49,266 bases of DNA, taken from assembly GCA_029834535.1 (NCBI GenBank), contig JAQMWT010000153.1, forward strand, positions 1 through 49,266, in the 5' to 3' direction. This DNA is from Chrysophaeum taylorii. Lineage: Eukaryota; Sar; Pelagophyceae; Pelagomonadales; Pelagomonadaceae. Below, one piece after another: positions 3,662 through 25,542 of the stretch. Position 1 is the first letter of the stretch. Each line of letters begins with the position of its first letter. Below the pieces are notes generated by a model, which was given only the letters and a program-made list of their open reading frames with translations, was not told the DNA's origin and made no database searches. The position numbers were made by a program, and so were the translations under genes.

Positions 3662-4466
3662 TCATATCATTGAGTCTACTCTGAATATCGTGAGCAGCGC
3701 TCGAACCGAAGGTGGCATTAGAACTACCGTCGTCACGCGAATGATTATCTTTCCTTTGTCGCTCTCCCATCGTCCTCGCGATATGGGCTTTCTGCCGTCT
3801 GGGATGTATTTGCACATCGCTACATAATAGTCGTCGGGCTCGCGGTTGCAAATGACGCGGTTCCCGTGTTCGTCTTTGTCGTGGGTCGCTAAGAAAACCC
3901 ACAGTCCTGGCACGTCCTCCTCGAACCACTTTTTCGGATTCTCTTCGAGGCGTAAGGCTTCATATTTCGTCGTCTTTTCTTTCGTTCCCGAGACGAGAGC
4001 TCGTCCTCCGCGTCCAGGCGGCGGCTTCTGCGGCTTCCCGCTCGAGGGGTTCATCGAGTTTCGGCTGTTCTTCTCCGCCATGGCTGTTGCGAAGTCGTTT
4101 TCGAGCCGCGTAATCAGCGACAACGTAGACGTAAACGTCTTATACGTCATCGGGTGTCCGCTGCGCATCGTTCGCACGCGGGATTTCAATTCGCTGGACT
4201 CAGTCCACGTATCAAGTAAGAGATGATCTCCACGTCGTTGAGATCGCGGTGGCCACGGAACAGTATGCCATGGCTTCTTGCTGAAATTTAATGCAATATG
4301 TATGCACGTGACGTTCTCCAGAGCGTTTCGGAACGGTCGCTTGGGTCGTGCATTGTAACTTTCGTAATGATTCCTCTGCCGTCACCGGCAGCGGACAACT
4401 CTCTCGGAAATATTTCAAAATCTTGAGGCAATACTTCTCGTTCAATCGTCGTATCCGTCGTACCAC
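3662..4466 (-). pseudogene. Gag C-terminal part with unusual Cys motif (element A), frameshifted
   Basis: Two minus-strand frames continue the Gag of 5560-4442. The first (4466-4212) aligns with the helical capsid-like segment of B (RRLNEKYCLKILKYFR against RRLNYTYMQRILEYFR). The second (4189-3662) contains YYVAMCKYIPDGRKP, matching YYKAMYARVKGGRQP of B. Between them, in a third frame near 3898-3919, lies a C-x2-C-G-F motif equivalent to C-K-H-C-G-F in B. The shift that separates it from the downstream Cys is a decay mutation. This looks like a small metal-binding domain in place of a normal CCHC zinc knuckle. Confidence 0.5.
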
Positions 4467-5560
4467 GGAACCGTACTCCTCATCGTCGATATCCCGACAT
4501 AAATAGAAGACGCTGGGTGATCGAGGTCTTTACACAGGTCTTCATATTTCTTTAAGTGTTCTCGAAAAATCGGTGCGACCGTGTCGCGCAGGGTCGCAGG
4601 AAGCAGATATCGGAATTTCTCCAAGCTGAAATGGTCTTCGGCTAATGTACGCATCACCGCACCCGCATCTAAATCGAACTGATCCTGATCGCGTCCATCG
4701 AGAACCAGTTTAAAAGTTTCGGTTTTTAATCCAGAGGTTGATCGCCGCTCCTTGTTGCGATCGTGTTTAGCTAACGCGCTCGCGAGTCGATCCGTAAAAC
4801 CCATCAAGAACTCCTGGGTGTCGATCTTTCCGGTTCCGCGCGTCTCCTCCTTTTCTCCGTCATCATCGTCTTCATAGCGCGGCTTTCTAGCTTTCGCGCG
4901 TGATCGTGTAGTCGGCGGCTCTTCCTCAGCTCGGGACTCCGGGCTGCTCGCTCGCCTTGATCGACTCGGCGTACGTAACTCGTCTCTTTCACGGGTCAAC
5001 GAGCTTATTTGTTCCTGAAAGGCGTCCGTTCGAGCGTTGGCCCGGCGCAGTTGCTCTTTTAATTCTTCGTTCTCCTTCCGTTGTAGCCGTTCTTTTCGTT
5101 CGTTCTCTTCCCCTCTTTCACGGGTCAACGAGCTTATTTGTCCCTGGAAGGCGTCCGTTCGAGCGTTGGCCCGGCGCAGTTGCTCTTTTAATTCTTCGTT
5201 CTCCTTCCGTTGTAGCCGTTCTTTTCGTTCGTTCTCTTCCCCTATTTGTTTTAAAAGTCGTTCTTGCGCGCGTTCGTTCTCTTTGCGTAATGCTCGCAAG
5301 TGAGCTTCGTAGAACTCATCCATTTTCGTTGCATCCGGGGGTTCTGCACGCGTTGACGGAGCTGTCGATCGTCCTCCCGCCGGTCTCTCCGTGGGCTTGC
5401 CGTCGTTGTAGTTTAGCTCTTCTTCCTCGTCAACTTCTGTATCGTGCTCTTCTTCATCATCATCATTATCATCATCGTCATTCCGCTCGTTCGTCTCATC
5501 CTGACGGCTTGGCGGTTCTTCATATCGTAGCTGCTCGACGGCAGCATCATCGTCTTCCAT
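4442..5560 (-). CDS. Gag-like acidic coiled-coil protein, N-terminal part (element A)
   Basis: Retroelement Gag forms the particle that packages element RNA. The frame is open upstream to 5668, but the first ATG is at 5560 and the homologous Gag of element B also begins with Met just after a G-R-L-E-R-A motif, so I choose 5560. Order: a very acidic head of D/E runs; a 2 x 43-residue tandem coiled-coil repeat (KENEELKEQLRRANARTDAF in each unit); a basic, Ser-rich hinge; then a capsid-like segment (FKLVLDGRDQDQFDLDAGAV) matching FKLKVEDRDQKQFDLDAAAV of B. The frame ends early through a frameshift at about 4450-4500 and continues in 4466-4212. Confidence 0.65.
   Translation of the reverse strand: MEDDDAAVEQLRYEEPPSRQDETNERNDDDDNDDDEEEHDTEVDEEEELNYNDGKPTERPAGGRSTAPSTRAEPPDATKMDEFYEAHLRALRKENERAQERLLKQIGEENERKERLQRKENEELKEQLRRANARTDAFQGQISSLTRERGEENERKERLQRKENEELKEQLRRANARTDAFQEQISSLTRERDELRTPSRSRRASSPESRAEEEPPTTRSRAKARKPRYEDDDDGEKEETRGTGKIDTQEFLMGFTDRLASALAKHDRNKERRSTSGLKTETFKLVLDGRDQDQFDLDAGAVMRTLAEDHFSLEKFRYLLPATLRDTVAPIFREHLKKYEDLCKDLDHPASSIYVGISTMRSTVPWYDGYDD
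4985..5242 (-). repeat. 129-bp tandem duplication in the Gag coiled coil
   Basis: Two nearly identical units of 129 bp (period measured between 4985 and 5114) lie head to tail and encode two 43-residue heptad-rich blocks. The period is a multiple of three, so the frame is kept. Only a few substitutions separate the units, so the duplication is younger than the split between elements A and B, whose coiled coil shows no such repeat. Confidence 0.8.
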
Positions 5561-5651
5561 ATCGGCTCTGGCTCGTTCTAGTCGGCCGAGATCAGAGCGG
5601 GTCCAAAATGGTTGAGTCGTCGTCGTTCTCGTGCTCCTTCGGCTCGGAACT

Positions 5652-6200
5652 CTAATCGTCCACGACACGCGTAATATCGTCGTTGCGTGCGTCTTCCACC
5701 GACAAATCTATCCGTACGGTGGGCGGCAGAACTCGTCTCTGCCCGGCAAACAATGCCTTATCCGTGAGTTGCGATCTCACTCCGCTCGCCTGCGGCAGCG
5801 GTACCCGGGTTGCGCGTCGGTTAGCACCAAATCGCGCGTCGTCACTTCCGACGACAAACGTATCCGGCCGGGGAACTTTCCCACGGCAATGGTCCTTCTG
5901 GAATTCCTTGTCGGCGCGCTTGATCAGGGCGCGCACGGCTTGTCCGGACCGTGTAGAGAATGCAAGATGCACTAGTTCGTTGCGACCGATATAGTCGCTC
6001 GAATCTCGTATTCCTCCACCACCTGTGGCGTAAGGAGAATTTTAGGGGCTACCTGGCGTGCCTTCGAATCCTGGCTCGCCGATCGCGTCCGTGCCCTTGG
6101 TGGGATCACTGGACGAGGATGGCCGTTCTCCCGCCACGCGACCACAAACAACTCCTGCGCCTGGTCCTCTCAACTTGAGGATCGGTTGTTGCTTTATGAT
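5652..6200 (-). other. leader region upstream of Gag (element A)
   Basis: This non-coding-looking stretch is homologous to 9640-9920 of element B. Shared landmarks, read in element orientation, are a CCTCAAGTT box followed by GAGTTGTTTGTGGT, and further on a block CGCGCCCTGATCAAGCGCG (about 5922-5942 here, 9878-9898 in B). Such a block between LTR and gag usually holds the primer-binding and packaging signals, but I could not define a tRNA-complementary site. A 107-residue minus frame (5972-5652) is open across it but lacks a B counterpart and is probably not translated. Confidence 0.4.
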
Positions 6201-6251
6201 CAAGGATAATCGAAATCAGAAATCAGGGTGACACATGTCACGGAAAAGGAA

Positions 6252-6281
6252 GATGATGTCAGAGAAAACTCTGACATCATC
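6252..6281. repeat. perfect 13-bp inverted repeat with 4-nt loop
   Basis: The arms GATGATGTCAGAG and CTCTGACATCATC are perfect reverse complements and enclose AAAA. The hairpin lies just outside the leader of element A, near where its 5' LTR should end. It could be an LTR-terminal structure or a transcription-stop hairpin; the sequence does not decide between them. Confidence 0.8.
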
Positions 6282-6557
6282 GGAACGGAGTAGGGTGCCC
6301 CTGATGAGGGGGGGCCCTAGAAGAGGGGTAAGCCTTAGGAGGCGGGAGTTGCCGCCACAACACCCCTCCAGGCACAAGATGTTGGCGAGCTAGAGGGGCA
6401 ACAGCATGTGAGGTAGTTCGTAAGTCGGCTAGTAGGCGAGATCCTCCATCCACCACGCAAGAGTATGTTGCGGGGAAATTGGGGATACTAGTATGTATAT
6501 TTGGCGTGAGCCACCACGCCGAACTACTAGTACTCGGCAGCCACCCACCCTCCCTAA
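6282..6557. other. gene-free stretch, possible LTR of element A
   Basis: No frame here resembles a protein. The position directly upstream of the element A leader is where its 5' LTR is expected, but no second copy lies in the window to prove it. The DNA is G-rich near 6305-6345 and ends at the MITE. Confidence 0.3.
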
Positions 6558-10241: not shown

Positions 10242-11587
10242 ATGGCAGCGGAAGAGCCGGCGGATGAGCCGACTTACGAGCATGAGGAGCAGTCAGCTCG
10301 ACGTTTTGACGATGATGGTGACGATGATAGTGATGATGATGATGATGTTGTTCGTGAGGATGATAATGATGACGACGACGGTGATGAACCTGTGCGCCAA
10401 CCGCCGACCGCAACGCGTCTCGAACCGATTTCGGCGCGACCTAGGACGACAGAAGTAGAAGAAGAAGAAGAAGAAGAAGACGACGACGACGACGACGGCG
10501 ACGACGAAGAAGATGAAGCTGTTGCTGCCCCTCGAGCAAGGTTCGTCCAACCATGACGGAGATACGCGTTCTCCGAGAAGAAGTGAAAGAGCGACGCTGA
10601 GAAGAGGCTGAGCTCGGGCAACGACGAGAGAAGGATGAACTAGAGAAAGAGCTGCGTCGAGTACGAGACGAGCTTCGCAAAACTCAACAAGAAGCCGAAC
10701 GATTACGTCGTGAAGCAGAACTGTCCGCGAGTAGAAGCGCTGAGGCGCCGACGGGCAGAAGACCAAGTCGACGGTATCCAGAAGAGCCTGCTGCGCGAGG
10801 CTACGAAGCCGATACCGCCGAAGAAGGAGGCGCTAGGCGTGGTGATGAAGATGATGAGGAGAAAAAGCATCTTCGTATCCTCAGCGAGGTCATGTGCACA
10901 GCGATGGCCCAGGCTGCCAAGTCGAGTCATAAGTCAAGTAGCGGCATCAAGACTGGGACGTTCAAGCTCAAGGTCGAGGACCGCGATCAGAAGCAGTTCG
11001 ACCTCGACGCTGCAGCAGTACTTAACTCGTTGGCAGACGACCACTACGACATTGAGCGCTTCAGGATGATCCTTAGTCCGAAGATGCGTGATATGGCGGT
11101 GCCGTATTTCGAGGAGCACCTCGACCAATACAACGCACTCTGCAATCAACTGCCACACCCGCCTCATTTTAATTTAAAGCTGGAGGAGCACGACGCTGAG
11201 TATGGGTCGATTGTTCGAGAGTTTCGCCGGCTGAACTACACGTACATGCAGCGTATTTTAGAATACTTTCGGTCGACTTGCCGACTGCCTCGTACCCAAG
11301 AGGAAATGCTCCGCAATCTACGCGGTATTGCGCAAGCGACGACACCGAAGAAGGATGGCCAACATCACGCTCAGACGTATTGTGTCGCCCATCAGAACGC
11401 GGCCCTTGCTTTTTGCGCTCTGTCTGGGCGCAAGATTGGCGATGTGGAAATTATCGACCACCTCATCAAAGGCGTAGAAAGCGAGAATTTGAGGCCGAGA
11501 GAGCGCAAAGCGCAATACTCGCACTGGGAATCCCGGAGACTACGCGAAATTGGCGGGGACGATGCCACTTATCCTGCGCCGCAATAA
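10242..11587 (+). pseudogene. Gag-like acidic coiled-coil protein (element B), frameshifted
   Basis: The ATG at 10242 opens a very acidic segment of D and E runs (to 10556). A heptad-rich part (KDELEKELRRVRDELRKTQQ) follows in another frame with an in-frame TGA near 10600. The open part 10892-11587 carries the capsid-like segment FKLKVEDRDQKQFDLDAAAV, then RRLNYTYMQRILEYFRSTC, both matched in element A. The protein would form the element's RNA particle. The acidic repeats are partly trinucleotide microsatellite, which explains the length difference from A. At least two disabling changes are visible. Confidence 0.6.
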
Positions 11588-12201: not shown

Positions 12202-13400
12202 ATGATCGATCATACCCAAACCCACCAACCCACCAAAATCACCACAGATGCTTCCGTGTCGGATCGCACACCGCCGCAGCAGTCGACGGCTAGTGTTTCC
12301 TTTGCGTCCACAGTCCCTTCCCACCCTTTTGACTCGGCACAGGTCATTGATGAGTTATCTGGCGGCGAGTTGGACTCTGCCTTGCGCCAAGCCGCTGAAC
12401 AGGAACTCTGCAGTGATTCGCATTATTGGACGAATGATACAGAGTCGGACGCTGATTCTCTCGTGGATCTTCAGACTGATGAGAGCACTGATCTTGCGGA
12501 CGTCACAGATTTCATGGATGATATCTCGGATAGTGGATTCGACGATGCTGCACTTGATGCAATGAGCTTGTATCTTGTTTTGCTCCGGAGTCCCACGTCG
12601 ATTGTGAGGACACTTCGATTCCCGAGTTGATCGAAGATACGTCGGAGAGCGAAATCACCGATCATGATAGCGCGCCCTTTGGCGCACCGATCGACTTTCA
12701 CGTGACCAGTGATGGCCACTTACTTTCGACTTTGTCGACGGGGACGACGCCATTTTCTTTTCCAGGGTCCCCGACGAGCCGAATATGAGCATTCTAAGCG
12801 AGAAAGCTGATTCCGCTTCGAGCAAAGCGACTGAGAAAACGAAGTCGAGAGTTCGTAAACACGACTATGCAGGAACCGTCTTTGGAGCCAGACGAAAGTT
12901 CGGACGTGTTGCCAAAAACAAATGAAATGGGCTGCCGCCCAGAGGAAAGGCTGGATTGGACTATCAGCACTGAGAAGCTGAAGTTGAGTGTAAAGAAGAT
13001 GTGGATGCGAGCACGAAGGTTTTTAGCGAAGAAACCACCAGAGCGGAAAGAAGTGCGATTTCGCCAGCAAGGCGAGAACTTATTTGCCGATGAAAAGCAG
13101 ATTGGCGTTTTATCTGACTTTGGCAAGAGAAGGATGTGTGTACGGACGCGTCGATGGAAAAGCTGATGGAGTCGCTCTGGGAAGATTCCGAAGCACTAGT
13201 CGATTGCCAAGAAGAAGCCGAGATATAGGTGATGTGCTCTGATGAGCCGACGCCAGAGAGATCCAAGGATTCTCAAGTTGAAGCGACTGAGAATAGCTCC
13301 GACTTTTGGACCAAAACGAAATCGTTTCTTTCGAGCATTGCGCATGTGTCGAAGCCAGACCCAGGGGGTGTTGAACCAGATGCTAGGTGTTATCGCACTG
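12202..13400 (+). pseudogene. acidic Gag-Pol linker (element B)
   Basis: Frames 12202-12630, 12867-13166 and the start of 13229-13594 are acidic and Ser-rich and align with the linker of element A, including DSGFDDAALDAM, FLAKKPPE and VDPGTLTFMPCQVYR. No known domain is found. The blocks are separated by shifts. The last landmark lies directly before the protease, so this is part of the polyprotein and not an independent gene. Confidence 0.45.
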
Positions 13401-13811
13401 CCTTCTCACCGCAAGACCGAAAGGTGGTTGAACAAGGCTTGGAAACTATTAGCTGTGTGGATCCAGGCACTTTGACATTCATGCCATGCCAGGTTTATCG
13501 GAAACGAACAAAACGAGAGTTTGCTACGACGATTGGCTTTGATGGTATGGCCGATGTCACGTATATTTGCAGAGATTTGGCTGCTCAATTCTAAAGCGAT
13601 GGCATGGTTATCGATAAGGGAGATTTACGAATGGATTACGTTACGTGTTGCGATTGCCGATAGAATCACAGCACCACTCGTGGCCATTGTCGCGGATACC
13701 AGCAGGCTGCTTCTGCTAGGAGGTCGCGATATTGGAGTGCTGGGGGCTGTGGTGGATTATCCGCATGATCGAATTTCCTTCTATCGAACTCAAATCGCGT
13801 ATGGACGTTGA
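13400..13811 (+). pseudogene. retropepsin-like protease (element B)
   Basis: The protease would cut the element polyprotein. The active-site loop reads GFDGMADVTYI (Asp codon at 13541), with Gly-Met-Ala-Asp after the Asp where retropepsins normally have Ser/Thr-Gly-Ala. After a stop at 13594 another frame gives a second half, ITAPLVAIVADTSRLLLLGG-R-D-I-G, which is the L-L-G-R-D strand that ends retropepsins. Element A keeps the same D-G-M-A-D. The shift between the halves disables this copy. I am fairly sure of the family because both conserved ends are present in the right order. Confidence 0.55.
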
Positions 13812-14500
13812 ACGATACGTTACCGAGGCGAGCTCGTCGACTCTCCGATTCTGCCGTAAAGCCTTATCGATGTGGAAACGAGAAAGTTCGCGAAGCCGTG
13901 CATTCCGGCCGACTTGCGACGGCCGCCGCCCGAGCGTCAGTTCGCATCTACGACGATTGGAGTACCGCCGGAACTACCAGCGCAGATGTCGTTAGAATCC
14001 GAATCTGATGTTGTTGCTTATGCCGCACGGACCCAGATGATCGAGCCCGGCAGAACCTACAATATTCCTGCGACTCTTTCGCAACGTTTGGACCAAGTCA
14101 AGTTTTCGTCGCAATGTCCTCTGGCTATGAGCAGTTAGGTCTGGTCAGTGGGATGTGTTCTTCGTGCGATGTCCGAGACTAGCACTCTGGTATGGTCACC
14201 GCGTCGTTTTACAGGGTGTTCCGACCACGGTGATGCAGGGAGAGATCCTGGCCCATGCGAACATTGTTCGTTGCCAAGACGAGTTACAAGTCCGCCGCTG
14301 ACTAGAAGAAAACGACCACGGATTCTGACGAGAAGGGAAACTATTTTTTCACCGTATCGGTGACCAGTCACCTCAATCAGGTCGAAGACTCTCCCGCGCC
14401 CATTCTGCTTGGCGCTATAATACGCTGTTCGCGTGTCTCTGATCAGTCAATGCCCTCACCCAGCGAAAAAGACGATGGAGACGAATCTTATCTTCGTCGA
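13812..14500 (+). other. segment between protease and methyltransferase (element B)
   Basis: Short broken frames align in places with element A 1714-2028 (for example IEPGRTYNIPATLS). The stretch CACCTCAATCAGGTCGAAGA at about 14372 recurs as a diverged copy near 18560 before the second methyltransferase. It therefore belongs to the module that was duplicated. No domain is recognised. Confidence 0.4.
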
Positions 14501-15418
14501 TCTGAAGAGGACGAACAGAGGTGTCGCTACGCTGCCGAGTGTGAGATTCGCCAGCGATATGAAAAGGTCCAATGGCTCCCGCTCACGTATATGAAAGTAG
14601 TCATGATGTTTAGCGGACCTGGAGGTAGTACTTTGGGACTGCAGCGAGCAAACCAGATGCGTGGCACGTCTTTTCGTGTAGTCTTAGCACTTGATTCCTC
14701 CGAAAACGCGAATATGGTTCACCGCGCCAATTTCCCAAACACTCCCGTTGCTCAGCACACTCTTTGTGGACGCTATGTGACGACCCTGCGATTGATTATT
14801 AATTACTTACCGCATGAAGAACGGTCGTCGTCTATGTGTATTGCCTCGCCTCCTTGCGTGCAATCTGCACTTTGCAACTTGACTTCCCGTGATATTGGGA
14901 AAGGTGTAACTGCGACCCACTGGACCATGAGGATACGAAAGAAGGCAGGTTTTTTTTTGCTTTGGTTGATCGAACAAGAGGCTTCAATCGTGCCTTACAT
15001 CGCCCGTTTACACCCGTTTGTTTACCTAGCTGATCTCTACGCGACCACAACTCAGCTGATGAGCCGACGCAAACGTCTGTTGGTTTCGAGTCATCCCTTG
15101 CACCTCGAAGAAGCACCCAAAACCTGGCTAGATATGCAGACATTGTTCGCCGAACAGTTAGGCAACGGTGACGAACCGCATTTGCTCCAGATGAACAACC
15201 TGGGCTCGTCGCGAGACGCTACCGACGTCTGCTACACGATTGCGCACATCCCTCTCCGGATGGGACCGCATCGTTCCGATACCAAACCGCTGACAGTGGA
15301 GATGACCGCCGAGTTGAGCTGACTATGCCGCCGGATTGTGATTGGGCTGGATTATCCAAAACCGCTATGTTCATACATTTGGCTTCTGTCTTTCCACCAC
15401 ACTCTCTTGCTATTTAGG
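14500..15418 (+). pseudogene. retroelement cytosine-C5 DNA methyltransferase module (copy B1), one frameshift
   Basis: The open frame (ATG candidates from 14360) shows the Dcm/DNMT motif order. Motif I is FSGPGG (14609-14626, AdoMet binding). An acidic motif II strand VVLALDSSE follows, then motif IV ASPPCVQSA with the catalytic Cys at 14855-14857, and a motif VIII-like SRRKRLLVSSHP. The frame stops at 15322. A one-base shift near 15316 restores motif IX-like KPLTVEMTAELTM and motif X-like LASVFPPHSLA (G-N-A-V-P-P in active enzymes), ending at 15418. The motif VI position reads W-L-I-E-Q in place of E-N-V. The target-recognition domain is short. It lies between protease and RT in pol. The copy is broken, but only lightly. 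Confidence 0.75.
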
Positions 15419-15518: not shown

Positions 15519-16003
15519 TTGCAGGTTGCTGACGCTGCCTACCGACATTTGCGCACTCCGTTGATCAACACTCGAGCACGTGTCATCACGTGGGTGTCAT
15601 CTGAAGATTTACAGGATCCTACTAAGTGGCGACCTCCTGAAGTGCCCTTGTTGCCGCCTAAGACAGATGCGACGGGGCCGTCACATGCTTCGTTTGCAGC
15701 CCCCCTCCCCCCCCGCGAACCGCATTGGACGTTCCGCTAGATCCGGAGCAGAATCGCGAACCGAAAATGAAGAGCGAACCAATCGCACAAGTCAAAGGCG
15801 AGAAGATTAACAAGAGTCACCCTGAGGTCAGATTCAAATATGAGGAAAAGTTTGATGTTCCTTGGAAAGACGCCGCGAGATGAGGATGGTGTACCTCTGC
15901 CGTAGACTCCGGAACACGTGAATGATAATGACGCTATGAAAGTGAAGCTTCCGACGAAAGAAGTCGAGTAAGTCGTGAAGTTGGAATACCAGATAATCCG
16001 CAC
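15519..16003 (+). pseudogene. pol linker between methyltransferase and RT (element B)
   Basis: The 73-residue frame 15519-15740 (KWRPPEVPLLPPKTD) matches KWKPPEVPLIPPATD, readable in element A near 310-360 minus. KYEEKFDVPWKDA follows at about 15830-15880. The two landmarks fix the collinearity of A and B on the RT side of the methyltransferase. A poly-C tract interrupts at about 15700. Confidence 0.45.
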
Positions 16004-16696
16004 TTGGATGAAGATGCGAAGCTTATGCTGAGTCTCTGCGTTCGATATGCATGGTCATTTCTCGATCCGATCATGAGATCAGTGGACTCGCCGCCAGTAT
16101 CGTTGCGTTTCAAGGACGCTAATCCTAAGCCGATCAAGATGACGCAGTATCGACTCACTCCGGCCAAGCTCGATTGCCTTCGCACGCAGATTAACGAGTG
16201 GTGTCGCGATGGAGTTATTCGCCCTGCGAATCCATCCTGAGGATTTCCCGTGCTCATGTTGCCCAAGAAGGGAGCTGAAATTGGAACGTCTAATGCTTTT
16301 CGTGCCGCTATGGATTTACGACAGCTCAATGATCAGTTGGTCATTGACAGTTTGCCGAATGTGCGACAGGATGATACCCTAGTATTTATAGCGAAGCGCC
16401 GATGAAGAACATGCATTGACATACGATGGGGATATCATAATCTTCGTTTGGACCCTGCAGCTCAGGACGCTGTCACGATGGTCAGCCCGCTTGGAGCTCA
16501 TAGTTTTCTGCGCTTGCCTTTGGGAGTAAAGACCGTTGGAGCTCTCTTATGCAAGCAGATGGCCAGTGATCTGTCGAAGTGGATGTACAAGGACTTGATT
16601 GCTTTCATCGACGATATTATGATGGAAACGGACGATCTCCATCGTCATTTGCAAGTTTTGATAGACGCTCTTTGCCACCTGGCTCAGCGAGGATAG
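16004..16696 (+). pseudogene. Ty3/gypsy reverse transcriptase (element B)
   Basis: RT copies element RNA into DNA. The fingers show KMTQYRLTPAKLDCLRTQI and a G-V-I-R-P-A-N-P-S turn. A stop at 16238 and a shift follow. MLPKKGAE and RAAMDLRQLNDQ continue, then DIRWGYHNLRLDP and the catalytic FIDDIM (16604-16615), equivalent to Y/F-x-D-D. At least three disabling changes lie between 16238 and 16696. The order and the gypsy-type LPFGVK-like LPLGVKTVGALLCKQM motif make the family certain. Confidence 0.8.
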
Positions 16697-16872: not shown

Positions 16873-17480
16873 ATGAGCAACTACTGCCGCCGATATGTGA
16901 AGGATTACTCCAAGATTGCAGAACCGCTGAGACGCATGTGTCTCGAAGGTGTACATTTCAAATGGACACCCGAGTGTCAGAGGGCCTGGGACACGATTAC
17001 TGCCGCTCTAGTCGACTCTCGCGGAGTGTACCATCCAGATTATGATTTGCCGTCCCAGATACGCTCTGACGCGTCTAAAGATTGTCTTGGCACATACCTT
17101 TCCTAGTTGTCGAAGTCAAAGGCGAGAACGGGCGAGTAAGTCGAGAGGAGCGAGTGATAGAGTACTGGAGCCGTGCTATGCCGAAGAAGATGCGACATGA
17201 GCCCCGCCGTTTGGAGTTGTTAGCTCTTATTCTCTCTCTAGAGCATATTTGAGCCTCCATCAAAGGTCACAGACTTTTCTTGAGACAGACCATCGCAATC
17301 TGACGTTTTTGGCGGAAGGCTACTCATTCGGCTGGCCAGCTCGCCCGATGGGCCTTGCGACTCGCGAACTTAATCCCGAACTTGGCTGCAAGCCGGGTAA
17401 GTCACCAGGAAAGAGCATACCTGATTGCTTCTCTCGCAATCCTCTAGATCACGTGATCGAAACGGACAAGTTTGGTGAGC
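16873..17480 (+). pseudogene. RT connection and RNase H domains (element B)
   Basis: The piece starts with NYCRRYVKDYSKIAEPLRRM, the usual Y-Y-R-R-F-I segment after RT. FKWTPECQRAW follows, then an RNase H start (IRSDASKDCLGTYL, normally T-D-A-S-x-x-G-x-G). After a stop at 17104 and a shift it resumes with ETDHRNLTFL and ends in the I-P-D-C-F-S-R-N-P motif. Element C has the same sequence with the domain nearly intact (48393-49016). RNase H removes the RNA strand after copying. Confidence 0.7.
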
Positions 17481-17689
17481 CGCCTAACCACGCTTATTTG
17501 GTTTTCCAAGAGCTGCCGAAGCCTACTGATGAGGACGGAGTACCCCTGCCTGGGTGTCATGTCATGTTGTCATTTACTACGACCGACATACCTGAGGAGA
17601 AAGGCGAATCTCGAGATGACCCTATGTTTCTTGCTGTTTCCAGTGCGACAACTCAACGTCAAAAGCTTCGTCTACAGACTCAACCTCAC

Positions 17690-18540
17690 CCTTGCACGAT
17701 GCTGCTGCTCCAAGAGCATATCGACAAGATTCCAGACAACCTTGCGCTTGATGAGATTATCCGGGCTCAGAAAGAGGATCCGATGTGCAAGAATATTCGC
17801 TCTCGGATGGCTCGAGGCCATTCTCTTCGTCGTTATGGAGCCAATGCTCGTTTTGAACAAATCAAGAAAGTGCTATATCGCATTGCTGTCGATTTGCATC
17901 CTATGATTGTTGGAGCTGCGAAGCTGCGCGACCGCATTATTCGACTGTACCACGACAGCCCTGTTAATGGTTGGCATATGGGTCGCGAGAGCACTGTTCA
18001 GGCTATTTTTGAGCGTTACTGGTGGCCGCACATGTCAAATGAAGTTGGTGCCACTATAGCTCAATGTATCGTTTGTCAGAAAGCCCGCACGCCCGAACCG
18101 AAGAAGTCTGGTCTCCTTAAGCAACCAGTTTATGAAGGTGATTGTTCTGTCTTTAGCTTGGATCTCTTCGGACCTTCGCCCAGTTCCGGTCCTGAGACAT
18201 ACACTATCGTATTCTTCGATCATTTTTCCCGCTTCTTGTTTTTTGATGTGCTTCATACTAAGACCGCCGAGGCTGTAATCGAGTTTTTTGTCGCGAACAT
18301 CTTGTCGCGTGGGTATTTGCCGCGAATGATTCGCACGGATAATGGTCGTGAATTCGTCAATAAGTTGATGGAAGAGTACTGGAATCTCTCGAACATGCGA
18401 TATCAGACTACGATTCCCTATCATGCTCTAGCTAATCCTGCTATACGCGTTAACCGTTCTCTCAAAGCTTTTCTTCGGGCATGTCTTCAAGGTTGCAGTA
18501 GGAAGAAAGATTTCGGGCGAAAACGGAAACGCATCTTCCA
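17690..18540 (+). pseudogene. Ty3/gypsy integrase with altered third catalytic residue (element B)
   Basis: Integrase inserts the element cDNA. The long open frame (17249-19090) holds an H2C2 zinc finger (YHDSPVNGWHMG, then CIVCQK), the first catalytic Asp in SLDLFGP and the second in IRTDNGREF. The third position, in element C HTERVNRFIKAF with Glu, reads PAIRVNRSLKAF here, with Ile at codon 18443. The integrase would therefore be dead although the frame is open. The C-terminal domain is missing: from about 18540 the same frame runs into a second methyltransferase lead-in. Confidence 0.75.
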
Positions 18541-18559
18541 CCATCTCAATGAAGAGTCA

Positions 18560-19690
18560 TCTCGATCATGTCGAGGACTCTCCCGAGCCGATGCTACTGA
18601 GGGCCAAGACGGGCTAGCCGGAAAAGCCGACTATTCAACACCGCCCATCGATAAGACGCTGGACACTTCAGAGGGCGATGGGAATTCTCCTCGCCACCAT
18701 CGGTCCAAGGAAAAGGAGCAAAAGTATCGAGACGCCACTGAGTGTGAGATTCGTCAGCACTACGAGAAGGTCCAATGGTTTTCGCACACTTACGTAAACA
18801 TGGGTATGCTGTTTAGCGGCGCCGGTGGTGCACTTTGGGGATTCAACGAGGTACCGAGTTGTATGGCACGTCTTTTCACGTCGTGTTGGCTCTTGACTCA
18901 TCGGAGGCTGCGAGTAAGATTCATCGCGCCAACTTCCCAAATTTGCCCGTGGTGCAGCGCACTCCCTTTGGACGCTATGATGCGACTTTGCGGTAGATTG
19001 GCTACTATTTACCGCGCAAGGAGTGGTCATCGTCTATGTGTATTGCTACGCCGGCATACATTCCGCACTTTGCAACATGACAGCACTTGATGTGGGCAAA
19101 GGCGTTACTTGCTGTTTAGCGGCGCTGGAGGGAGCACTTTGGGGATTCAACGAGCTACCGAATTGTATGGCACGTCTTCTCGCATCGCTTTGGATCTTGG
19201 CTCATTGGAGGCTGCGAATAAGATTCATCGCGCCATGTTCCCAAATGTTCCCGTGGTGCAGCACACTCTATGTGGCAGCTATGATGCGACTTTGCGGTTG
19301 ATTAGCAACTATTTACCGCGCAAGGAATGGTCATCGTCTATGTTATTGCTACGCCTCCGTGCGTAAATTCCGCACTTTGCAAAATGATTTCACGTGACGT
19401 GGGCAAAGGCGTTACTTCGACCCGCTGGACTATGAAGTTATGCAAGATGGCAGGCTTTATGCTATGGTTGATCGAACAGGAATCTTCTATTGTGGCTTCC
19501 GTGGCTCGACGACACCCGTTCGTCAACGTGACTGATCTTTACGCAATAACGCCCATGCTCATGAGCCGGCGCAGACGTATGCTGCTCTCGAGTCATCCGC
19601 TGAACCTCGAAGAGCCGGACAAAACCTGTTTGGACATGCAGACCAGGTTCGCTGACCAATTGAGATACGGGGATGCCCTCACCTATTTGA
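18560..19690 (+). pseudogene. second methyltransferase module (copy B2) with internal duplication
   Basis: The lead-in DATECEIRQHYEKVQW matches AAECEIRQRYEKVQW of B1. Motif I FSGAGG is then present twice, at about 18811 and 19114, because 303-307 bp covering motifs I to IV are duplicated in tandem. The first unit has lost the catalytic site (A-T-P-A-Y). The second keeps P-P-C at 19354-19362 and continues through WLIEQESSIV, SRRRRMLLSSHPLNLEE and DMQTRFADQL to about 19680, short of motifs IX/X. Several shifts separate the pieces. It follows directly on the integrase, unlike B1 and A. Confidence 0.65.
18809..19414 (+). repeat. about 305-bp tandem duplication of methyltransferase motifs I-IV
   Basis: CTGTTTAGCGGCG starts at 18809 and again at 19112. 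The block GTGGGCAAAGGCGTTACTT ends each unit (19092 and 19399). The units differ by scattered substitutions and small indels, so the duplication is old. Confidence 0.85.
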
Positions 19691-20019: not shown

Positions 20020-21120
20020 ACTGAAGACAGACAAGCCTACCTCAAGGCCATCGCAAACGAGCTCCACGACATTGTTCGGTTGGTTGTTTCAAATTGTCCC
20101 TTCCGGACAGCAACACTCGCCCCATTGACTCTCGCCTTGTACTCAAAGTCAAAACTAACTCAGCAGGCGAGTACGTGAAGCACAAAGCTCGACTCGTTCT
20201 GCGTGGCTTTATAGCCTCGCTTGGTGTCGATTTTTTCATGACTTTCAGTCCCATGGCGAGGACAACTGCTATACGCGTCATCCTAGCCATTGCGGCATAC
20301 AACAAACTCCCGGTCTACCACTCCGACGTCCCCAACGCCATCTTCGAGTTTGACATCGATGCTCACGTCTTCGTACAACTACCGGATGGTATCGAGCTCA
20401 CCCGGCCCCGCAAGACGATGAATACCAAGGGCGCCGACTCCCCAAGCTGCTCAATACCCTTTATGGTCTCAAGCTATCTCCCTCGCTGTGGAACAAAAAG
20501 ATTGAGACAAGCTTTTCCATCGACTTGGCTACAAAAGGCTCCACTCTAACACTTCTTCGTACACAAAGGTATCATCGCTTGCTCGCTTTCTTCTCTGCAG
20601 TCTGTCTGTCGATGATATAGTCATCGTATCTAACGACGGTGATCTACAAGTTCTTCCATCGACTTGGCTGCATAACGTACCACTCTGACACTTGTTTGTA
20701 CACAAAGGTATCATCGCTTGCTCGCTTTCTTCTCTGCAGTCTGTCTGTCGATGGTATAGTCATCGTATCTAACGACGGTGATCTACAAGCTCTTCCATCG
20801 ACTCGGCTACAAAAGGCTCCACTCTGACACTTGTTTGTACACAAAGGTATCATCGCCTGCTCGCTTTCTTCTGTGCAGTCTGTCTGTCGATGATTTAGTC
20901 ACCGTATCTAACGACAATGATCAAAGCACTGAACTACAGAGCGCCCTCAGAGATCGCTACTCTGTGGACCATTTTAACCTTGTTCATTTTTGCTTGGTAT
21001 GAGTACATGTCGCGCTGCCGCTGGCTCTATTTCCATGGATGTACAAGCTAAACTCGACGCTTTCTTCGAGGAACACCCTATACTCAGGACGCAAACCCCG
21101 CTGAAGTACCTTATGAGTCC
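20020..21120 (+). pseudogene. copia reverse transcriptase, with triplicated active site
   Basis: The frame 20094-20549 shows RLVLKVKTNSAGEYVKHKAR, FFMTFSPMARTTAIRVILAI and SDVPNAIFEFDIDAHVFVQL, the usual copia order. Three tandem copies of a 139-bp segment encoding the F-x-H-R-L-G-Y through L-S-V-D-D block follow, then ELQSALRDRYSVDHFNLVHF and SISMDVQAKLDAFFEEHPIL. The active-site copies read S-V-D-D, S-V-D-G and S-V-D-D. Because 139 is not a multiple of three, the triplication destroys the frame. Confidence 0.75.
20515..20930 (+). repeat. 139-bp segment repeated three times across the copia RT active site
   Basis: The landmark CGACTTGGC (or CGACTCGGC) occurs at 20521, 20660 and 20799, exactly 139 bp apart. 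The TCTGTCTGTCGATGAT-like active-site block is repeated in step. The units are highly similar, so the amplification is fairly recent. Confidence 0.9.
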
Positions 21121-21479
21121 ATCGGCCCCTTACAATGAAGGCTCGCCCTCTACAGACACGGAAGTCTACGTTATTGGTCATTTCGCTACCGTATTGGATA
21201 AATTTGCCTTCATGCAAACCGCTTGCCCTCCTGACTTCTCTCAAGCATCGGGACGCTGTTCTCGAGATATGCACAATCCTACTTCTGGTTACCTGGTAAA
21301 TCCGGAGAACAGGGCCCTGCGCCTTTGTTGGTTTCATTCAAAGGACAACGCGATCGAAACCCATTTGCGCACTCTCACCACTAACAGAGTCGACCTTTCA
21401 ACTATTGTTGACTACGCTACAGACCAAATGGCCTCTGGTGACTTTGCCGTCGCTATGGTTGATGCTCCCTTTCTCTCTC

Positions 21480-22059
21480 AGGAGAACAGGAAGTCCACTA
21501 CAGGAACGTGTTTTGCCTCTTTGGCTACCTTATCTCATGGAAGCGTGAGCTCCAGCCAACAGAAACCTCTTCAACCCATGAGTCTGAACTCATTGCTCTT
21601 GGCATCTGCGCTGACGAAGCTGTCTGGCTCAGGAAACTCCTCTGGAATTGTCTTTTGTGGTCGAACCCCACCTCTTACGTTAACGCAGATCCTGATAAAG
21701 ACCCGCCAGCAGACTACGATAACGATGATAAGCCCGTTGCTGAGGATATGAGTTTTATCAGAAGTCTGCCTTTACTATTTGACAATGCTGCTGTGGTGCA
21801 CACCTCTAACAATCCTGATAGATCTTCGCGTAGCAAAGCTCTCTCTACTCGATGGCTTAATATCCGAGAGTGTGTTGCGTTACGCAAGATCAGAGTTCAT
21901 CACATCCCAGGCAAATTTCATGTTGCTGACGGCCTCACCAAGCCCCTTGCAAATGAGTTCGTTACGTTTCGTTCACTGTTTGGCATGCATCATGCCAATC
22001 CAAAGTCTGAACCGAACAGCCATGATTGTCGCTTACCCTGGGGACCGCAATGCCGTTAA
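21480..22059 (+). pseudogene. copia RNase H domain
   Basis: The open frame 21508-22059 shows LISWKRELQPTETSSTHESE, as in the copia I-S-W-K-S-K-K-Q-P-x-x-x-x-S-S-T-E-A-E segment. LLFDNAAVVHTSNNP, RWLNIRECVALRKIRVHHIP and ADGLTKPL complete the domain. The acidic insert near 21690-21740 (DPDKDPPADYDNDDKP) is longer than usual. It would remove RNA during replication. The domain itself looks intact, although its RT is not. Confidence 0.75.
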
Positions 22060-22283: not shown

Positions 22284-22697
22284 TGATCGCCGACCGCATG
22301 GTTGCGATGGAAGACGGTGCCTCATGAATCCTGAGCCTAGCGAGGGCATCCGCCCTCCCGGCGTAGGTTGGCACTTGTTCGCCTCCCGGGCGGGCCGGTT
22401 GGTAGCCGGAACGTTCGCAGTGGGACGGGGTATGACGGGGGGTGCAGACGGTACGTTATCGACGAGTTGGTTGTCAGTCACATCTCGGTCTCCGAGTCGC
22501 ATGGCGATAAGCCTGATGATCACTCTCCGCCGACTCACCTTTCGGCGCCCCTCGTCTACTGACCCCCGTGATTCTGGACAGGCTCCTGTCGGCCCGGCCT
22601 GGCTCCCATGCTCGGGAGAGGTCTGAAGTTAGTTAGTTAGTTAGTTAGTTGGTTAGTTATTTAGTTATTTAGTTAGTTAGTTAGTTAGTTAGTTAGT
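22284..22697 (+). mobile_element. 5'-truncated LINE 3' end with (TTAG)n tail (copy L1)
   Basis: The insert is flanked by AAATCGTTCTGCC (22271-22283) and AAATTGTTCTGCC (22698-22710), a 13-bp target duplication with one mismatch. It ends in a (TTAG)n tail from about 22627. The frame ending at 22626 has the C-terminus GPAWLPCSGEV, identical to that of copy L2 on the opposite strand. A fixed 3' end, a simple-repeat tail and target duplications are typical of non-LTR retrotransposons. No RT is left. Confidence 0.7.
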
Positions 22698-22710
22698 AAA
22701 TTGTTCTGCC

Positions 22711-22940
22711 GCAGCGTCAAAGATCTCCACCCCATTAACAAGAGTCTCGCCCTGTCTGATATACTTACCTTCGACCTTGAACCGGACGCTCCGTCAATGG
22801 GGCATTTAGCGTCCCGGTTACACCGTTTCTGCAGTCAATCTCTCAGCCGACGATTTCGCTTAACGATGCCAAAGACGACATGCATTCCTCAGTTTGGTAA
22901 ATTTGAACGGCTCATCAAAGTATTGTCGTTCTTCTCAATG
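22711..22940. other. junction between copia tail and nad11 fragment
   Basis: The first part continues the copia 3' region after the LINE target site. I see no gene. Base composition shifts to AT-rich at about 22900-22941, where the mitochondrial-type sequence starts. Confidence 0.4.
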
Positions 22941-23893
22941 AGAGCACCTAGATTTTGTTTTCACGAAAAATTAGCAATAGCAGGCAATTGTCGAATGTGT
23001 TTAGTTGAATTAGAAAAATCACCCAAGCCTATAGCCTCTTGTGCGATGCCCGTTTTAAACAATATGCGAGTCTTTACTAATACGCCTTTAGTGGAAAAAG
23101 CAAGAGAAAAAGTGTCTAATAACTAACTAACTAACTAACTTCAGACCTCTCCCGAGCATGGGAGCCAGGCCGGACCGGCAGGAGCCGGTACGGAATCACA
23201 GAGAAAATTCACGCAGTTGGGGCAGAGGGACGAGGACGGACTTGTTGATGGTGGACCGCCACTGCGCGCAGTCTTGTGCGAGGTCGTGCAAAAGCGTCGC
23301 AGGTCGCGGACGTGTTGGTCCACGAACAATCGACCTGTCCGTCGCGTTCTGCCCAACCGAGCGAACTCCATCCCAGCGCGGACTTTCCGGGTGCTAACCG
23401 GCCAGCCCGGGAGGCGAGCAGGCACCGTCTCACTCCGGGACGGCCGGGACCGCCGCAGGGAGCAAGCGTGTTAGGCGCCGTCCTCCATCGCAACCAACGG
23501 TTAGCGATCGCAGGGTATGTCTAATAACTTTTATTGATAAATCATCCTTTAGATTGTCCTATTTGTGATCAAGGAGGAGAATGTGATCTTCAGGATCAAA
23601 CAATGACCTTTGGAAGTGATAGAAACAGATTTTTTGAGCACAAAAGAGGTGTTTCAGATAAAAATTGTGGGCCTTTGGTAAAAACGATAATGACTCGCTG
23701 TATTCATTGCACAAGATGTATCCGCTTCGCATCTGATATCGCGGGTGTTGAAGATCTTGGAACAACGAATAGAGGACGCGGAACAGAGGTAGGGACATTC
23801 ATTCAAAAAGTTCTTCAAACGGAGCTTTCCGGAAATGTTATTGACTTATGTCCCGTCGGCGCACTAACTGCAAAGCCGTGCGCTTTCAATTGT
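22941..23893 (+). pseudogene. nad11: nuclear fragment of mitochondrial nad11 (complex I 75-kDa Fe-S domain), split by a LINE
   Basis: Nad11/NuoG carries electrons through Fe-S clusters in complex I. Segment 22941-23124 encodes [20 protein letters not shown] and SCAMPV, the 2Fe-2S ligands. Segment 23518-23893 encodes [32 protein letters not shown] and [12 protein letters not shown], the 4Fe-4S ligands. LINE copy L2 lies between them, flanked by a perfect 12-bp duplication. Even without the LINE the frame is broken by one missing T in a T run just after the junction. Start and end are truncated. The AT-rich codon use differs sharply from the neighbouring nuclear genes and fits transfer of mitochondrial DNA (a NUMT). 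Confidence 0.8.
23125..23517 (-). mobile_element. 5'-truncated LINE 3' end with (TTAG)n tail (copy L2)
   Basis: The same family as L1 but in the opposite orientation. The (CTAA)n tail lies at about 23121-23140 and the frame 23425-23141 (minus) ends in GPAWLPCSGEV. TGTCTAATAACT occurs at 23113-23124 and again at 23518-23529, a perfect 12-bp target duplication inside nad11. L2 encodes a C-P-N-C-V-N-F-L-C stretch that L1 lacks, so the two copies come from different subfamilies. GC-rich sequence contrasts with the AT-rich host segment. Confidence 0.8.
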
Positions 23894-24750: not shown

Positions 24751-24933
24751 AAGCTTGATTAACAAACTGGTCTGCATATGCAATTTAAGTTTTAGCGGTT
24801 CTTTGTACAATGATGTCAAAGCAGATTCGCTCACTTACGTACGTAAAACCAAACGCAAAGGTCCTTTGCGCTTGAGGATAACCATCTTTCTCAGAGTAAA
24901 TATCTTGTAAATATCTTAATTACTTACCTTCCA

Positions 24934-25063
24934 GCTCCAAAGGTATGTGCTCCAAAGGTATGTGCTCCAAAGGTACGTGCTCCAAAGGTACGTGCTCCAA
25001 AGGTATGTGCTCCAAACGTATGTGCTCCAAAGGTATGTGCTCCAAAGGTATGTGCTCCAAAGG
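24934..25063. repeat. 15-bp minisatellite, about nine units
   Basis: GCTCCAAAGGTATGT is repeated almost nine times with single-base variants (TATG or TACG; one AAACG). The unit is a multiple of three, so two frames stay open through it by chance (M-C-S-K-G on plus, P-L-E-H-I on minus). Confidence 0.9.
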
Positions 25064-25412
25064 GCACTCCTCATATGCACCTATGCCTACTATTCGTGGT
25101 TCATGCAACATGATCATATTAGACCCACGAAACAGTCGCTTGCGACTTTGCACTTTGAAAGGGCTAGTTCGCACCAACAATTATAAGGCGCACCAAGCTA
25201 GTTTTCTTTTGTCATTACCACCTGACTTATGTTGTGACATGATTGCCAATTCTATACTTGCTGGTATTCATCATGTTGTGTACTCTAACTTGTGTCAAAT
25301 AGTCTATGACACACGAAAACGAGCTTTGTCTCCTTCGCTTGACCCCCGATCGAGCACACCTAACCAAAACTTACAGGTCACTTTGCTTTACAAAAGAAGC
25401 TCAAATAGTAAG

Positions 25413-25542
25413 TGACACACAAGAATCCTTCATGCTCCCCACACACACCCCCCTCTTAGCAGTCGACATTTAAAGACACACAAGAATGCACCACACACAC
25501 ACACCCCTCTTAGCAGTCGACCTTTAAAGACACACAAGAAAT
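25413..25542 (+). repeat. two short insert-like units bounded by GACACACAAGAA
   Basis: GACACACAAGAA occurs three times and separates two related units. Both units end in CTTAGCAGTCGACATTTAAA or the same with CCTTTAAA. The first unit matches, inverted, the insert nested in the MITE at 6761. The three GACACACAAGAA copies would be target duplications of two successive insertions, or the product of tandem duplication. Confidence 0.65.

Follow-up and report, generated by a model that had tools for sequence, protein, structure and literature searches.

In the pelagophyte Chrysophaeum taylorii, a family of Ty3/gypsy LTR retrotransposons carries a C5-cytosine methyltransferase (MTase) in its Pol polyprotein just before the reverse transcriptase (RT), and the domain is kept by purifying selection across the family. 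We regard this anatomy as practically certain. The initial annotation had read the order from a single copy and the genome (70.8 Mb, 697 contigs) bears it out, both by intact elements and by a spacing to RT that is kept in 85 of 150 scored RT copies. Two elements on contig C5, L031 and L032, consist of a single uninterrupted ORF of more than 3000 amino acids (L031: 3026 aa within the stretch analysed and 3067 aa in the full genome; L032: 3063 aa), in the order acidic N-terminal region, protease (PR)-like stretch, MTase (approximately aa 1370-1700 of L031), RVT_1, RNase H, H2C2 zinc finger and rve. RT, RNase H and integrase are thus in Ty3/gypsy order in one Pol ORF, with no interruption between the MTase and the integrase. 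The L032 element, the one copy checked for terminal repeats, has LTR-like direct repeats of 341 bp that start with TGTGG; they are 98.2% identical, which indicates a recent insertion. No clear target-site duplication was found at this copy.

The family is abundant. The numbers of genome matches are lower bounds: at least 121 with the L031 MTase as query (best 121 of 1053 candidates), at least 141 with the MTase of the window described below (best 141 of 930), and at least 116 at E <= 1e-20 with L073, a member of a divergent subfamily (best 116 of 916). Some ORF ends are common to several of 30 loci: an end at 1414, before the MTase, is found in four (L003, L005, L013 and L018) and an end at 2928, after it, in five (L005, L011, L016, L019 and L023). 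An ORF of exactly 1233 aa holds 5 of the 150 scored RT matches. These shared ends and sizes may reflect either a broken lineage that has multiplied or frameshift-based expression.

The window, by which we mean the whole 49,266-nucleotide stretch of contig JAQMWT010000153.1, contains a broken copy of the element. Its features are listed in Table 1 together with the main loci elsewhere in the genome. The MTase copy is frame-broken: ORF 14306..15319 stops at 15320 before it reaches motif X, and an end resembling that motif (HLASVFPPHSLA) lies in a different frame. According to the ORF translations, the ORF contains FSGPGG, IASPPC, an IEQE block and RRKRLLVSS, and motif I, the catalytic PPC and the R-R-x-R block are therefore present as first described. 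The motif IX/X ends that had been placed at 14500-15418 held up in part, since a motif X-like end is there but in the other frame, the range spanning two frames. By itself the copy is marginal, as its PF00145 score of 19.6 bits (E 6.7e-4) is under the curated cut-off of 22. The 16406-16693 piece of its RT matches PF00078 (RVT_1) with E 8.3e-5 and 22.8 bits, under the cut-off of 29.6; the 15932-16237 piece has no Pfam match and by eye resembles the RT start of L031. The gag-like ORF has no significant match to a Pfam gag family, and LTRs sought around this copy were not found.

Table 1. Features of the window and principal methyltransferase loci in the C. taylorii genome
Feature	Location	Strand	Basis or remark
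Gag-like ORF of gypsy element	10601..11584	+	ORF; by eye like ORF 4445-5707 of the minus-strand copy
Degenerate retropepsin-like (protease?) segment, two frames	13229..13808	+	By-eye pattern DGMADV.YIC ... LLGGRDIGVLGAVVDY
C5-cytosine methyltransferase domain, motifs I to IX	14498..15319	+	Motifs, PF00145, profile comparison
Motif X-like MTase end, other frame	15172..15414	+	Frame 0 ORF; compare HLASVVPPDTMA of L031
Gypsy reverse transcriptase, two ORF pieces	15932..16693	+	PF00078 on 16406-16693; by eye elsewhere
RNase H-like domain	16873..17103	+	PF17919, E 5.6e-9
Integrase, H2C2 zinc finger and rve core	17921..18424	+	PF17921, E 3.1e-15; PF00665, E 1.3e-9; ORF 17201-19087
Second MTase remnant, joined to truncated integrase ORF	18701..19677	+	Internal tandem duplication of ~304 bp
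Copia reverse transcriptase / RNase H remnant	20025..22056	+	PF07727, E 2.2e-19 on 20025-20546
Decayed main gypsy-MTase subfamily copy, cut by contig start	1..6367	-	Nucleotide identity to L032; frames
Host Dnmt2 candidate, single ORF of 360 aa	G000:C634:8824-9801 (L046)		Motifs, architecture
Host DNMT5-like gene, 2086-aa ORF	G000:C621:16800-22700 (L049 = start)		C5-MTase and SNF2 (PF00176)
Copia-type element with C5-MTase	L047:1-3807	-	Also L048, L075 (G000:C96:63000-70000)

Besides this copy, the window holds two further MTase remnants, one downstream of the integrase and one on the minus strand (~627-1314). The latter belongs to a decayed copy that is 93.6-98.0% identical to L032 at the nucleotide level over four blocks and 74% over a fifth, with an LTR-like end at 6019-6367; it is not among the matches listed in the genome searches with the window or L031 MTase. 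The order integrase then MTase in the window suggested that the MTase might belong 3' of the integrase. This was rejected because the MTase precedes RT in the whole-ORF copies, the piece at 18.7 kb being a remnant fused to an integrase that is itself truncated. Beyond 20546, the Copia remnant is without a Pfam match and was assigned by eye; it contains a 139-bp unit repeated three times (20507-20923). Further along the window are an inverted repeat at 22568-23199, with 80-nt arms that are 94% complementary and both match the flank of the C5 element, and beside it a gene piece (23528-23893) matching NADH dehydrogenase iron-sulphur domains. Tandem arrays were also seen, one of a 15-bp unit (GCTCCAAAGGTATGT) at 24904-25083 and one of two copies of a 54-bp unit at 25432-25539.

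Comparison with PF00145 and with known enzymes confirms in substance that the gypsy domain is a C5-MTase, for which enzymatic activity is predicted. While the window copy falls under the PF00145 cut-off, L073 reaches 34.1 bits (E 2.6e-8), its best stretch covering profile positions 260-321, motifs IX-X. Some places found with the window MTase also pass the cut-off alone at 22.3-23.3 bits (C456: 23.3); L031 and L032 are under it at 18.9 and 18.4 bits. We also built a reference profile from nine C5-MTases, namely the host Dnmt2, the host DNMT5-like enzyme and seven phage or plasmid enzymes. In hmmsearch against a six-sequence target this profile matched L031 with E 1.3e-8 and L032 with E 7.2e-9, and of three reversed-sequence controls just the Copia one appeared, at E 0.81. 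In hhalign, the gypsy MTase aligned to it with a probability of 95.4% (E 1.7e-8), with motifs I, IV, VI and VIII aligned. When the L031 polyprotein was divided into nine pieces of 330 aa, the seven without the MTase scored at most 0.2%, the first MTase part (1200-1530) 93.5% and the second (1500-1830) 0.1%, so most of the profile signal comes from the motif I-IV half.

The residues expected of a C5-MTase are well conserved. F41, G43, G45 and G46 of motif I and P121, P122 and C123 are invariant in the four-sequence alignment A4, as are the motif VI Glu and the R.R of motif VIII (R193, R195), across four subfamilies and down to 39% identity. The distance from the PPC Cys to the motif VI Glu is 38-40 residues in five gypsy sequences and 37-47 in the nine references; that from the Glu to R.R is 32 and 37-44 residues, respectively. 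Motif VI itself is EQE or EEE, not the canonical ENV, and the region between motifs VIII and IX, by which C5-MTases recognise DNA, is short at about 60 residues.

The enzyme had also been called Dcm-like, for which no support was obtained, as hhalign with single references resolved no affinity to one C5-MTase class: the phage C5-MTases Anaero and Hades gave 92% and 80%, and host DNMT2 44.5%. NCBIfam dcm matched the L031 MTase with E 0.0013 and 18.4 bits, far below its cut-off of 100.65. Sequence searches of the PDB gave weak matches. With the L031 MTase alone the two best were DNMT2/tRNA methyltransferases (E 0.07-0.08), with profile A4 two cytosine-specific methyltransferases (E 0.28 and 0.53) ranked above DNMT2 (E 0.93), and with the L073 MTase there was none at E 0.1. 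An AlphaFold2 model of the window MTase, aligned with the window's own remnants, was uninformative (pLDDT 31.9). The stretch upstream of the MTase, where the initial annotation placed a protease, shows the PR-like pattern VDGMADVSYI ... LLGGRDIRVLGAIVDF; this L031 region had no Pfam match at E<=10, nor did a PDB search match it to a retropepsin, so that the pattern alone suggests a protease.

Linkage of the MTase to RT was examined for the best 150 of 1020 RT candidates, of which 85 have the MTase 1.56-1.89 kb upstream. A scored MTase lies within 9 kb on the same strand in 74, and in all except two of these it is 1671-1821 bp upstream (72 matches; the other two are at 1359 bp and, on the other side, at 7450 bp). 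Among the other 76, thirteen have an MTase place from the PF00145 or L031 search at a distance of 1563-1885 bp. From the 63 RT matches without a scored MTase, we read 16 at the position expected for the MTase: it is present in 12, in ten of these as two matched pieces, two have the segment that lies upstream of the MTase, one of them in opposite orientation, and two are without any match. At a divergent-subfamily locus, a gypsy RT/RNase H (57% identity over 189 aa) again lies downstream of the MTase. The idea that other family members lack an MTase between protease and RT is contradicted by these counts (85 of 150, and 12 of the 16 sampled). The window is admittedly a patchwork, with another MTase remnant and Copia pieces after the integrase, as might be left if the MTase adjoined RT merely through insertion of a second element and were not a domain of Pol. 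Such an insertion is refuted as the cause by the uninterrupted ORFs of more than 3000 aa at two loci and by the fixed spacing, and we consider it extremely improbable.

Selection was estimated by the Nei-Gojobori method for four copies of the main subfamily (A) and two copies of a second (B). Between A and B, the MTase has dN 0.11-0.13, dS 2.0-2.6, where synonymous sites are near saturation, and omega 0.043-0.066. Against the window copy, dN is 0.19-0.21 and pS 0.74-0.78, which is beyond correction in five of six pairs. Omega is 0.076 within B and 0.21-0.35 within A, as expected if part of the divergence in A postdates insertion. The RT is more constrained (A versus B omega 0.014-0.021). Between L031 and L043, identity is 80-92% in the MTase core (aa 1381-1620), 67-68% in its last part (1621-1740), 67-73% in the PR-like stretch (961-1140), 47-68% over 1141-1380, and 15-46% before aa 961, a part that aligns with less certainty. 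Comparisons between subfamilies fall in the same order by MTase identity as by RT identity (A-B 79-82% and 95-96%; A-window 69-71% and 89-90%; A-L073 39% and 57%), which fits a capture before the subfamilies split. The arrangement first noticed in one element is family-wide and held by selection, with an A-B omega of about 0.05.

The PF00145 search of the genome also matched a second, different set of places (best 123 of 474 candidates), which belong to a Copia-type element. Its full order, as read at C96 alone, is protease-like start, C5-MTase, integrase-like stretch and RVT_2 (E 7.7e-39); the protease-like and integrase-like parts were assigned by eye, neither having a Pfam match. The Copia MTase scores 30.6 bits with PF00145 and 96.8% in hhalign, is within a frame of 1952 aa at C96, and has at least 107 matches genome-wide (best 101 of 615 candidates scored). 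No relation to the gypsy MTase was detectable (BLASTP E 0.11; hhalign 0.2%), and a PDB search gave nothing but a chance immunoglobulin match (E 0.97). Because its motif I is degenerate (AIIAGGLHQEG) and two copies have dN 0.065 and dS 0.135 (omega ~0.48), constraint is less clear than for the gypsy enzyme. A genome search with PF07727 (best 150 of 1670 candidates) did not make Copia RT near the MTase readable. It is probable that C5-MTases unrelated to each other were acquired independently by two LTR superfamilies of this alga and occupy the same position in the polyprotein, on the N-terminal side of the enzymes for replication and integration. If so, particle-borne methylation of nucleic acid would be a repeatedly selected trait of LTR elements in this host, and most C5-MTase genes of the host genome, by number, would belong to parasites.

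The host's own C5-MTases among the matches listed in the same intron-blind search are a Dnmt2 candidate and a DNMT5-like gene alone, both assigned by architecture and motif reading. PMC9998398 reports DNMT5a in several groups, among them diatoms, bolidomonads and pelagophytes. As to the source of the element enzymes, pattern searches of IMG/VR confirmed no relative of either MTase, and a pattern search of GTDB genome contigs confirmed none. The best matches among phage records have E 0.3 for the gypsy MTase and E 1e-3 for the Copia MTase.

How might the MTase serve the element? In the account we prefer, a Ty3/gypsy lineage would have taken a C5-MTase into a single Gag-Pol ORF, just N-terminal of RT, before the present subfamilies split, and selection has kept the enzyme since. 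The order of domains, the conservation of catalytic residues, the copy number and the purifying selection are observed. The place of the MTase in Pol next to RT suggests that it is packaged with RT and, inside the particle, works on nucleic acid of the element itself, most likely newly made cDNA. The copy would then be already methylated on entering a nucleus with a DNMT5-like enzyme, and might be disguised as host DNA, protected, or damped in expression. A Copia family would independently have taken up a second, unrelated C5-MTase. As a whole, we give this account slightly better than an even chance; methylation of the element's own cDNA, taken singly, we put somewhat short of one. Methylation of the cDNA at CG, if it persisted in the copies, should raise the rate of C>T changes at CG. 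No such rise was seen: across 28 of 30 loci of ~3.8 kb (all but L001 and L029; pairwise identity 0.970 at the median and 0.666 at the lowest, no locus being dropped on that account), polarised C>T changes were 81/15390 at CG (0.0053) and 154/30687 at non-CG sites (0.0050). CpG observed/expected in the gypsy-MTase loci is 1.29. By following base, the changes were 69/9891 before T, 55/11229 before A and 30/9567 before C, a twofold spread that is unexplained. The earlier suggestion of an element able to methylate its own or host DNA is thus not borne out by a deamination footprint, and methylation of element DNA remains inferential; young copies or good repair would be compatible with methylation despite this. 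Further points count against the account as a whole, namely the short VIII-IX region, the EQE/EEE motif VI, the negligible profile signal of the second half, the tighter constraint on RT, and the lost motif I and high omega of the Copia enzyme.

The missing footprint keeps alive the alternative that the MTase methylates RNA in the manner of Dnmt2, adding m5C to genomic RNA or to the tRNA primer and so aiding packaging or reverse transcription. The short recognition region and the two best PDB neighbours of the L031 MTase, both DNMT2/tRNA methyltransferases, agree with it, and de Mendoza et al. raised RNA methylation for SymbioLINE-Dnmt (PMC5890265). The likeness to DNMT2 is weak and not exclusive, however: profile A4 ranks two cytosine-specific methyltransferases above DNMT2, and hhalign favours phage C5-MTases over it. 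We consider this alternative rather unlikely. The domain could also be a methyltransferase fold that has lost catalysis and serves Pol as a structural module or to bind nucleic acid, as its motif VI without the ENV triplet, the degenerate motif I of the Copia enzyme and the lower omega of RT might suggest. F.G.GG, PPC, the motif VI Glu and R.R are, on the other hand, invariant in four subfamilies, and since a dead fold would not need such residues we hold it quite unlikely.

Cytosine methylation often silences retrotransposons, so an element with its own MTase is a paradox. Earlier descriptions are from dinoflagellates and a charophyte. To these C. taylorii adds another alga, in which the elements are of simple LTR type, number in the hundreds and carry two unrelated enzymes in two LTR superfamilies. 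Elements of this kind may chemically mark their own copies. With this setting and the few host C5-MTases found, it becomes testable whether the elements' own cDNA or RNA is methylated and whether they are helped or restrained by it.

A C5-MTase in a gypsy Pol is not new in kind, since KnitGypsy-Dnmt3 of Klebsormidium nitens was described by de Mendoza et al. 2018 together with SymbioLINE-Dnmt and SymbioDIRS-Dnmt3 (PMC5890265). As reported there, KnitGypsy-Dnmt3 resembles the present family in that a gypsy LTR element carries the C5-MTase within its Pol ORF, that key residues are conserved, that there are several copies and that selection is purifying (Ka/Ks < 0.2). It differs in grouping with eukaryotic Dnmt3, whereas the MTase here is highly divergent and assigned to no class; in its DIRS-like repeats, in contrast to simple direct repeats of ~340 bp (one copy checked); and in copy number, several against at least 141 scored. 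A capture independent of that in Klebsormidium is plausible. Among the papers listed in literature searches, no title or abstract opening named a C5-MTase-bearing LTR element in an ochrophyte, or a genome in which two LTR superfamilies carry unrelated MTases. A recent account (MBE 2025, PMC12344493) likewise describes MTases embedded in retrotransposons; the enzymes are of the DNMT3 class, the elements LTR Copia and DIRS, and the hosts named are streptophytes and dinoflagellates. The words pelagophyte and Aureococcus are absent from its main text. PMC6338049 includes stramenopiles among organisms whose Ty3/gypsy and DIRS elements bear Dam or DCM; the statement lumps these, does not specify the enzyme or element meant in stramenopiles, and names no Copia element. 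Anti-viral roles were also proposed there. In the stramenopile alga Ectocarpus, the ParB-MTase gene of Sola1-1_Ec32 is also a transposon-borne DNA methyltransferase, but the enzyme is predicted to be N4-cytosine or N6-adenine specific and Sola is a DNA transposon (PMC12477816). PMC5890265 also describes Symbiodinium, where a single alga likewise has hundreds of retrotransposon-borne DNMTs and the MTase of SymbioDIRS-Dnmt3 likewise shares an ORF with RT. SymbioLINE-Dnmt gave no DNA methylation in yeast and is CG-depleted, unlike the gypsy copies here (PMC5890265). The Symbiodinium elements are DIRS and LINE, whereas those of C. taylorii are LTR gypsy and Copia.
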